Source: Sphingomonadales bacterium
Lineage (GTDB): Bacteria; Pseudomonadota; Alphaproteobacteria; Sphingomonadales; Kordiimonadaceae
Assembly: GCA_011088215.1 (NCBI GenBank)
Contig: JAALKD010000002.1
Coordinates: 62,001 to 126,000, forward strand
Reading direction: 5' to 3'
DNA length: 64,000 nucleotides
Shown here: positions 17,861 to 36,478 of the stretch, one piece after another
How positions within the stretch are numbered: the stretch's first letter is position 1
Layout of the letters: every line of letters begins with the position of its first letter
Program-made: the position numbers and the translations under genes
Notes under the pieces: generated by a model
The model's input: only the letters and a program-made list of their open reading frames with translations
Database searches by the model: none
What the model was told of the DNA's origin: nothing

Positions 17861-18358
17861 TCAGAACGGGATTTCGTCGTCCAAGTCGGCTGCGCCGCCA
17901 GCGGGTGCGTTTCCACCTTGTTGACCCCCACCTTGCTGTCCGCCATGAGATTGGCCGCCGCCGTAATTTGACTGGTTGTCGCTAAAGCCACCACCTGCAC
18001 CATCGTTGCGGCTATCCAACATGGTTAGCTCGCCGCGGAAACGCTGTAGAACTACTTCGGTTGAATATTTTTCCGTGCCAGACTGATCAGTCCATTTACG
18101 AGTTTGAAGCTGGCCTTCCACATAAATTTTGGAGCCTTTTTTCAAATAATTTTGCGCAACCTTGGCAAGATTTTCGTTAAAAATCACCACACGGTGCCAC
18201 TCAGTTTTATCGCGGCGCTCACCAGTGTTCTTGTCGCGCCAATTTTCGGACGTCGCAACCGACAGGTTCACCACTGGTGAACCATCCTGCATCGAACGCA
18301 CCTCAGGGTCACGGCCCAGATTACCAACCAAAATTACTTTATTTACACTACCAGCCAT
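17861..18358 (-). CDS. ssb: Single-stranded DNA-binding protein
   Basis: [43 protein letters not shown]...; Gly-rich linker; acidic tip DLDDEIPF; start corrected to 18358. Confidence 0.97.
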
Positions 18359-18480
18359 TAGGGCCCCCTTGTTGAAATATTGAGAGGGTACAGCGTGAAA
18401 CAAACTGCCTCGCTGCCTCCATACCGGAGGGAACATAGACCACAAATGCCCGCCCTTGCAAAAGGTAATTGAGGATTTTT

Positions 18481-18495
18481 GTTCTATTTTTGTTC
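18481..18495 (-). promoter_or_regulatory. SOS (LexA) box upstream of ssb
   Basis: GTTC-TATTTTT-GTTC, perfect alphaproteobacterial GTTC-N7-GTTC, 123 bp upstream of the ssb start. Confidence 0.75.
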
Positions 18496-18625
18496 TTTTA
18501 TAGTCAACTATTGTTTTATTACTCAATTCGCCGATGGTTTCAGGCGGTTCATCGCGCCGATATAGCCAAACCAAAACATGTCGTTAGGCTCAATCTGGGA
18601 ATTTTAGCTGAATGAGGGGAATGTC

Positions 18626-19770: not shown

Positions 19771-19785
19771 GTTCTTTATTTGTTC
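19771..19785 (+). promoter_or_regulatory. SOS (LexA) box upstream of uvrA
   Basis: GTTC-TTTATTT-GTTC, perfect GTTC-N7-GTTC, ~100 bp upstream of uvrA. Confidence 0.8.
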
Positions 19786-33506: not shown

Positions 33507-34803
33507 TAGACAGCCCGATCCCCGCGATTGTTTTCCAATCGTTCGCTTGTTTGCAGTGCATTTTGATTTGAAGGCTTGATAACATGACGAGGCGGCTCGT
33601 CGATTTGCATCAGGCCCCGCAAAATGCCCTCTCGGATACCACGGTCTGCAACTCGCAAACTGGGCATTGGCCACATGTTTAAAATAGATTCCAAGATGGC
33701 ACAGCCGGCAACGACCAAATCGCACGTTCTTCACCGATGCAAGGCTCTGCAGCGCGTTCCTGCGGCGACATTTCAGCAACCCGACGAGACAACGCGCTGA
33801 CGTCACCTGACCTCATCCAGGCTCCATCCACTTTATCACGAATGTAGTGCGGTAAGCCGAGATGCAAACTGGCAAGCGTAGTAACTGTGCCAGATGTGCC
33901 CAAAAACTGGGTGTCTTGGCCACCAAGTACCGCGCTAAGAGTATGAGCATCTTCAAAAGCCTGCAATTGGCCCGCGATGGTATCAACCATACTTCGGTAT
34001 TGTTGACCCCTATCTTGAATTTGCGATCCGGCATATTCTTCAGTTAAATTCACCACGCCCCAGGGAACAGACATCCAGCCATGAATTTCGTTCACACTGC
34101 CCTTCCGGCATTTAACCCAAATCAATTCCGTGCTGCCGCCGCCGATATCAAACACCAGAACATTTTTCATTTCAGGCGCAATCAGAGATTGGCATCCAAG
34201 AACAGCCAATCGCGCCTCTTCTCCCGCTGAGATAACATCAAGATTAATACCCGTTTCTCGTTTAACGCGGGCTACAAACTCATCAGAGTTATCCGCTATA
34301 CGGCAGGCTTCTGTTGCCACGTGACGCATGCAGTTAACATTGCGACGGGCAAGTTTCTCAGCGCAAACTTTCAAGGCCTCGACTGTTCGGTCCATGGCCT
34401 CATCAGACAAGCGATTGTCCGCCCCGACGCCTTCACCGAGCCGGACAATGCGCGAAAAAGCATCAATCACTCTGAAACCGTTTTTTGACTGTTTTGCTAT
34501 TAAGAGCCGGCAATTATTGGTGCCCAAATCAATGGCGCTATAGACCGCGCCTCGGCGCGGCCTCGCCTTGCCGTTTTCTCTACGTTGTTTTTTTTGCCCC
34601 GAAGTCTGACCAGAACGACCATGTCGAGCCAGCGCCCTTCCACGTTCAGGAATTTGTTCTGCAGTGTCAGCGTACCGTCGACCACGTTTTGGCTTTCGCC
34701 TGTTGCCGGATCTGCTTTTTCCGGGCGTTTCCGCGGCCTCAGCCTCTTCGGACTTGGGGCGCCGACCATCTGCGCTGTTTTCAGCACTGACGTCCAAGGA
34801 CAT
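33506..34803 (-). pseudogene. Ppx/GppA family phosphatase, interrupted by a frameshift near 33713
   Basis: YSAIDLGTNNCRLLIAK...VFDIGGGSTELIWV...; frame breaks at PCIGEERA|IWSLPAV and resumes as LVVAGCAILESILNMWPMPSLRVADRGIREGILRGLM in another frame. Confidence 0.8.
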
Positions 34804-34940
34804 AACAATTCTCATTTACTAATCGCGACTGATATCAATCGCTCACTTACCTCTCCTTTACCACCAAACATGGACATTGCCAATGAAACCACCCATCGCC
34901 TCACGTTTTTATGGCGCAGGATACTATGTTAGGCATATTT

Positions 34941-34955
34941 GTTCTCATTTTGTTC
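34941..34955 (+). promoter_or_regulatory. SOS (LexA) box 1
   Basis: GTTC-TCATTTT-GTTC, perfect GTTC-N7-GTTC. Confidence 0.75.
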
Positions 34956-34982
34956 TTGACCGTTATATTAAATATCTGGTAG

Positions 34983-34997
34983 GAACAAATAAAGAAC
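34983..34997 (-). promoter_or_regulatory. SOS (LexA) box 2
   Basis: GAAC-AAATAAA-GAAC; reverse complement GTTCTTTATTTGTTC is identical to the uvrA box core. Confidence 0.78.
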
Positions 34998-35011
34998 AAA
35001 GGGAAAATACT

Positions 35012-35218
35012 GTGAGTGTAAGTCATTTGATTATCTTGGGAATTTTCATCGCTTTGGGCAGCGCGGGGCTGGCTATGGTGCAATCATCACTTGGGGTGAT
35101 ATGGCGGTCCGTTGCGTGGCGATCATCCAAGCCGGCAGAAAACCACGGTGCAATCAATGGCAAGCTCACCAAGTCTTGCACCATGAGTTTGGGCACTGAT
35201 ACAAATATCATGATCTAG
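35012..35218 (+). CDS. Candidate SOS-induced small single-TM membrane protein (68 aa, GTG start)
   Basis: MSVSHLIILGIFIALGSAGLAMVQSSLGVIWRSVAWRSSKPAENHG...; N-terminal hydrophobic helix then basic stretch; AAAGGGA upstream of GTG; preceded by two perfect SOS boxes. Confidence 0.5.
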   Translation: MSVSHLIILGIFIALGSAGLAMVQSSLGVIWRSVAWRSSKPAENHGAINGKLTKSCTMSLGTDTNIMI

Positions 35219-35313
35219 GCACGCATGTAGGCTCTGCAAACGTACGAATGAATAGTTGAAACGGCTATTTTAATGGTGAGACTTTCGCCTGCGAATGCAG
35301 CGTAAATAAATAA

Positions 35314-35477
35314 GGCGCGGTGCACTGCCGTTAAAAGCAAAAGCACCGCGCCTATTCCGAGCGAAACCCCCAGGTGAGGCCCGGTATCAGATTTGGATAG
35401 ACGGCTGCAAACTAGTGCGCCAAATGACTGGTATCACCTCCCCAAGCTAACCAGCACAATTCCAATCCAACTGATGG
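35314..35477 (-). ncRNA. Candidate structured small RNA
   Basis: Minus-strand TTGACA-N17-TTCGAT promoter (35512-35484); internal complementarity AGGTGA..CAG..ATTTGG / CCAAAT..CTG..TCACCT; 3' hairpin GGCGCGGTGC/GCACCGCGCC then TTATTTATTT. Confidence 0.4.
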
Positions 35478-35665
35478 AATGACATCGAACTGGATTCGCC
35501 GCGCGCTGTCAAGTTTCCTTCATAAAAACTTAACATTCAGATGTTTGGCAACCTAGGACTGTGACTTTTTTGCTGCGAATATACTGTTCTGTCTCGGTTT
35601 TTCAACAAAGGTTGAATGTTGATCGGGGACTCGAGGCAGACAACTGACCCTCACTCATCACACAC

Positions 35666-36478
35666 TCAACCGATGGGTTCGCCCTGATATTCTGAAACGC
35701 GGCAATATTGATCAGCACTGATACGTTTAATACGCGTACATAGGGCATCCGCTTCCTGCTCGCTAATCAACGGACCCGCTACCAACCGCATGAAAGTTCC
35801 TATACCCTCCTGGCTTTGCACATAAAGCAGTGGTGTCAAGCCCTGAAGATCACTGGAATAGGTCTGGGCAAGATTGCTCCAGCCGCTGTTAACCTGATCT
35901 TTGCTGCGGAAGGACGCCAGATGAATCCCAAAAAAAGCTTCTTCGTTTCGTTTCACATTGCTAACCGGGGTTGCGTCTGCCGCGGCCGATTTGTCAACGT
36001 CGGCAGCCGCCTCAGCGCGACCAGTTGGTGCCTTGGCCTTGGCGACAAATGCGGGTTTACTGGTCTCGGCCATCTCAACTGAAAACAATCTATTTTCAAG
36101 CTTCTTCAATTGATCACGAATAACAGATACATCGTTACGAACGCGTCCGACTGATGCCTGAACCTTGGGGTCTTTCTCTACATTGGCGACCTTCTTGTTG
36201 ATACCTGCGAGAACCGCTTCTTGCGCACGCACATGCTGAACAAGTTCCACGTAAAGCCGTTCAAGCGCATTAAACCTATCTCGAAGGGCACGGTGATCTT
36301 CTGAGACAAATCCAACATCCTGTTCCAGCGCCTGCTGCCGTGCCTCAACTAGAACCTCTTCGCCCTGCCACAAATTTTGGCTGGCGCATGCTGGCAAAAC
36401 CAGCAAGCACGCTGTGACTGCGCCTGCACGTATTGTTTTTGCCCTATTGTGCCGTGAATATTTTGATGTCTGTGCCAT
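35666..36478 (-). CDS. SPOR domain-containing lipoprotein
   Basis: Lipobox LLVLPACAS; coiled-coil middle; C-terminal SPOR-like FFGIHLASFRSKDQVNSGWSNLAQTY... Confidence 0.75.
   Translation of the reverse strand: MAQTSKYSRHNRAKTIRAGAVTACLLVLPACASQNLWQGEEVLVEARQQALEQDVGFVSEDHRALRDRFNALERLYVELVQHVRAQEAVLAGINKKVANVEKDPKVQASVGRVRNDVSVIRDQLKKLENRLFSVEMAETSKPAFVAKAKAPTGRAEAAADVDKSAAADATPVSNVKRNEEAFFGIHLASFRSKDQVNSGWSNLAQTYSSDLQGLTPLLYVQSQEGIGTFMRLVAGPLISEQEADALCTRIKRISADQYCRVSEYQGEPIG

Follow-up and report, generated by a model that had tools for sequence, protein, structure and literature searches.

Does the very short open reading frame that follows two LexA-like boxes in this Kordiimonadaceae DNA encode a protein of the SOS response and, if so, what might that protein do? 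The locus lies in a window of 64,000 nucleotides, by which we mean the whole stretch of DNA analysed here, from a marine, Kordiimonas-like alphaproteobacterium. An earlier note, made from the sequence alone, had described a 68-aa GTG-start frame with an N-terminal hydrophobic segment and a basic tail, preceded by two perfect GTTC-N7-GTTC boxes in opposite orientations, and had proposed that it is an undescribed small single-pass membrane protein under SOS (LexA) control. The frame and both boxes are present as described. The features to which the argument refers are:

33679–34815, minus strand: divergent Ppx/GppA-family gene (PF02541, E=1.8e-41), conserved left neighbour, 3′ end frame-disrupted
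34941–34955, plus strand: LexA box 1, GTTCTCATTTTGTTC, perfect
34956–34961, plus strand: −35 element TTGACC, abutting box 1
34980–34985, plus strand: −10-like TAGGAA, a weak match overlapping box 2, placed from the upstream sequences of 44 family members
34983–34997, minus strand: LexA box 2, GTTCTTTATTTGTTC, perfect, inverted, over the expected start site
35000–35003, plus strand: Shine-Dalgarno-like AGGG, 8 nt upstream of the GTG, seen in the sequence; most relatives have a purine-rich stretch in this position
35012–35218, plus strand: gene for a predicted small single-pass membrane protein, 68 aa, GTG start, recognised from its sequence, its relatives and an AlphaFold2 helix
35012–35125, plus strand: conserved core, residues 1–38, a transmembrane (TM) helix with F12, G16, G19 and Q24, delimited by f1 conservation and low N-terminal dN/dS
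35666–36478, minus strand: SPOR-domain putative lipoprotein gene (PF05036, E=9e-07), conserved right neighbour

LexA is present in this genome. A GTTCN7GTTC box lies 46 nt before the lexA start codon and the same box precedes a ComM/YifB-like Mg-chelatase gene; these two positions make the motif a credible operator here, as in Caulobacter, where the same GTTCN7GTTC operator is used (PMC12700426). The window contains six perfect matches against 1.78 expected from shuffles. Both uvrA (from 19887, plus strand; box at 19771) and ssb (17861–18574, minus strand; box at 18481) have one upstream perfect box, so that the small frame, with two, exceeds either, as had been claimed. Because of these paired operators, LexA binding and SOS induction of the small gene are predicted as very probable, and its product would probably be made only after DNA damage. 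A literature search of limited coverage found nothing linking Kordiimonas and the SOS response. Two further loci of this genome were noted. One (L140, G000:C117:420-608) encodes another protein that has a LexA DNA-binding domain, at a locus without a perfect box; at the other (L122:963, G000 contig C58:7262) a perfect AT-rich LexA-like box lies over the start of a 52-aa frame with a C-terminal hydrophobic segment.

The promoter suggested in the earlier note, TTGTTC-N17-TATCTG, has to be replaced. TATCTG is not conserved, the nearest relative (G015) being one example, and the conserved element is a different one, TTGAC abutting box 1, found in 29 of the 40 family members with a recognisable box 1, with TTTAC in six more. 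The −10 element is poorly conserved across the family. From the position of the −35 element and of the weak −10, one LexA dimer would lie against the −35 and the other over the −10 and start site. The operator thus overlaps the promoter and is also conserved in relatives, two properties by which members of a LexA regulon are recognised. In upstream sequences of family members the box starts are mostly 40–43 nt apart, and the start codon generally follows box 2 by 10–19 nt, leaving a very short leader.

Frame-disrupting changes in relatives, which had been named as evidence against a real gene, were sought, and the frame proved open in all 44 members, favouring a real gene. The f1 loci were reached by a protein-first route free of box-based selection; of the 18 examined, 17 keep the perfect pair and the eighteenth has one mismatch. 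Members outside f1 were found via the boxes, or by a box-filtered search around ppx. Across the family box 1 has at most one mismatch in 40 of 44 members, and box 2 is perfect in 44 of 44, a figure partly selected because of the way in which the non-f1 members were found. Some genomes of the clade (G035, G053, G043) show just one recognisable box, which, like the poorly conserved −10, counts against the proposed model.

A protein search of 60 relatives found short open frames in most of the genomes within the genus and in several within the family. When the box pair was used by itself (GTTCN7GTTC, 22–34 nt, GAACN7GAAC), it matched 37 of 151 genomes of the order and a reversed-pattern control matched one; the paired architecture is therefore far beyond chance. 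Just behind the pair, every one of the 37 has an ORF of 34–96 aa with one N-terminal hydrophobic helix, and a comparable single-TM ORF was met at random positions of the same DNA in 1.2% of trials. Among 30 f1 genomes the exact pair occurs in 25 and a one-mismatch pair in two more. In the remaining three (G002, G005, G010) the ppx locus is undetectable as well, and their assemblies therefore probably lack the region. Beyond the order, the pair was found in two of about 380 genomes of the class, neither with a small TM ORF behind it, and the ppx neighbourhood of 40 other genomes of the class and of three f5 genomes has no such gene. A scan of a genome collection with the single protein gave Kordiimonas laminariae as sole match. 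The family profile, run against 289 genomes of the class, returned, apart from the window itself, mostly pieces of large proteins and weak matches attributable to chance, and for this reason we do not claim a wider family.

The conserved part of the protein is its N-terminal helix. Residues 7–23 have a mean Kyte-Doolittle value of 2.45, are free of charges and are followed by a basic tail, in agreement with the original description. Within f1, F12 and G16 are present in 27 of 27 sequences, G19 in 25 and Q24 in 24. N-terminal codon changes between G022 and G029 comprise 7 synonymous and 0 nonsynonymous, and for the N-terminal part of the G000/G015 pair pS is 0.76 and pN 0.26; pairwise codon comparison shows little or no constraint on the C-terminal tail, which drifts. 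By these codon comparisons, purifying selection is acting on the first 38 or so residues. None of the 44 members has a charged residue in the TM core, and insertion of the protein into the membrane is predicted as close to certain. The C-side is more basic than the N-side in 43 of 44, from which an N-out/C-in topology is predicted. A single-sequence AlphaFold2 model has one helix (residues 3–38) and an unstructured tail, at a modest pLDDT of 67. Searches of Pfam, NCBIfam, PHROG and PADLOC with the small protein gave nothing meaningful; in Pfam it matched neither the SulA fold (PF03846) nor the LysM domain.

The gene occurs once per genome, at a chromosomal site. It stands beside ppx in f1, f2, f6 and f7, and in f4 beside other genes, with ppx not adjacent. 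The f8 loci (L022, L024, L026) also carry the small SOS gene away from ppx; at L022 and L024 its neighbour is a chorismate-mutase-like gene, and another conserved gene lies upstream. A profile of f2, f6 and f7 sequences ranked 21 members from f1, f4 and f8 ahead of every one of 123 TM decoys, though many of these members have weak E-values. Members from f1, f2, f4, f6, f7 and f8 are therefore likely to form one family, in which f8 and f4 are placed by weak profile scores together with the shared promoter design. As judged from its sequences, this is a new protein family, real and conserved, which falls within a known functional class and is without a match in the libraries searched. The earlier proposal of an undescribed small single-pass membrane protein under SOS control is upheld by the conserved operators, the selection on the ORF and the lack of a match in four libraries.

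The flanking genes have features of their own. Near its 3′ end (about 33680–33720, minus strand) the Ppx/GppA gene goes out of frame and its C-terminal part, LVVAGCAILESILNMWP..., continues in another; matches in other genomes stop near residue 365–371 of 378, and we regard the break as an assembly error or a recent frameshift. On the other side, those f2 and f6 loci that were examined have a lipoprotein-like gene in the corresponding place. The interval from the small SOS gene to the SPOR gene contains a conserved structured ncRNA (35305–35540, minus strand), with an invariant CTTGACA promoter element, a terminator hairpin and compensatory changes in 18 of 41 predicted pairs among 14 Kordiimonas genomes. 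It has no Rfam match and is not 6S RNA, which was found elsewhere, on contig C147; we consider it a candidate new ncRNA family. In Kordiimonas it is convergent with and downstream of the small ORF, without overlapping it.

What, then, might the protein do? Small SOS-induced single-pass proteins that block FtsW, FtsI or FtsN constitute a well-established class (PMC4211646, PMC13396833), and we consider it about evenly balanced whether the present LexA-repressed family consists of division inhibitors, most likely late-acting ones like SidA or YneA. Such a role is supported by a genome in which no SulA (PF03846) is detectable and by a conserved part that is no more than a helix bearing a G-x2-G face. 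On the other side, a conserved TM helix would also suit other membrane targets (respiration, transport, FtsH or other proteases). SidA, the SOS division inhibitor of Caulobacter crescentus, offers the nearest comparison, being likewise very small, single-pass, alphaproteobacterial and under GTTCN7GTTC LexA control; the present protein, predicted to be SOS-controlled and single-pass, resembles it by description. Outside the order the family profile yields no small-ORF member that convinces. No sequence similarity to known division inhibitors could be shown. About 97% of Caulobacter SOS promoters have a single box (PMC12700426), against two in the present family. DidA of Caulobacter is a small single-pass division inhibitor induced by DNA damage that acts on FtsN (PMC4211646); unlike in the present family, with two LexA boxes over its promoter, induction is through DriD and does not involve LexA. 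YneA, ChiZ and SosA of Gram-positives and mycobacteria are also SOS-induced, single-TM and late-acting in division, the target of YneA at that step being FtsW (PMC13396833). The present family differs from YneA and ChiZ by a tail that is basic, fast evolving and predicted to be cytoplasmic. Both of those proteins have an extracellular LysM domain, which is lacking here.

Alternatively, the protein may be induced by SOS to act as a membrane adaptor or regulator on a target other than the divisome, such as a protease (FtsH, for instance), an envelope-stress sensor, or a respiratory or transport complex. We think this rather unlikely, even if many small membrane proteins do serve as adaptors, the gene here is flanked by those for a Ppx/GppA phosphatase and for a SPOR lipoprotein, and the TM sequences of the deep f8 relatives are quite different. 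The f8 and f4 genes retain their paired boxes away from ppx, which points to a function independent of the neighbours, and the commonest known role of the class is division arrest.

A membrane toxin of the TisB or DinQ kind, acting through depolarisation, dormancy or persistence and restrained by an antisense RNA, appears unlikely, slightly more so than an adaptor. Its appeal is that the peptide is small, hydrophobic and LexA-controlled, like these single-TM toxic peptides of E. coli, and that a conserved ncRNA lies convergent and downstream in Kordiimonas, an arrangement resembling TxpA/RatA. The dinQ promoter, too, is overlapped by two LexA operators (PMC3567139). However, dinQ has a long processed leader and of its transcripts only +44 is translated (PMC3567139), whereas the long structured leader of type I toxins is absent here, with the start mostly 10–19 nt after box 2. 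The TM helix, moreover, is uncharged in all 44 members, the gene is a single chromosomal copy at a conserved locus, and no antisense RNA across the ORF was seen; the ncRNA does not overlap it, and in G026, G030 and G055 the small gene persists where there is no room for this RNA. The earlier note had offered the SidA and TisB analogies as inference, and such they stay; the evidence favours a SidA- or YneA-like role over a TisB- or DinQ-like one. That the boxes serve the divergent ppx, whose start is about 125 nt from box 1, or a non-coding transcript, with the ORF incidental, is highly improbable and is rejected for ppx, since the same-spaced pair precedes the small ORF in f8 and f4 without an adjacent ppx, the TTGAC element is oriented toward the small gene, and the ORF is open throughout the family and under purifying selection.

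On the preferred reading, that of a division inhibitor, LexA dimers would occupy both boxes in undamaged cells and keep the promoter shut. DNA damage would lead RecA to trigger LexA self-cleavage, and the TTGAC promoter would then fire. Its short-leader mRNA would yield a protein of about 60 aa, inserted as one helix, probably N-out/C-in, whose G-x2-G face and conserved Gln at the membrane exit would pack against a membrane partner. This would most likely be a late divisome protein (FtsW, FtsI or FtsN), so that septation would be delayed until repair is done.

To our knowledge, SOS division arrest without SulA is understood in only a few species, and the known small inhibitors are each lineage-specific. 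More tentatively than for the inhibitor role itself, and at a little under even probability, the family may represent an SOS division checkpoint shared by a whole alphaproteobacterial clade, the Kordiimonas group together with four or more other families, in which a bare TM helix would present a G-x2-G...Q face to FtsW, FtsI or FtsN and an unusual two-operator promoter would hold LexA over the −35 flank and the −10. The family would provide a candidate division inhibitor, whose conserved core measures about 38 residues and includes four conserved positions, together with an operator pair, in a clade for which we found no SOS work, as well as a natural two-operator SOS promoter for comparison with the single-box promoters of Caulobacter.
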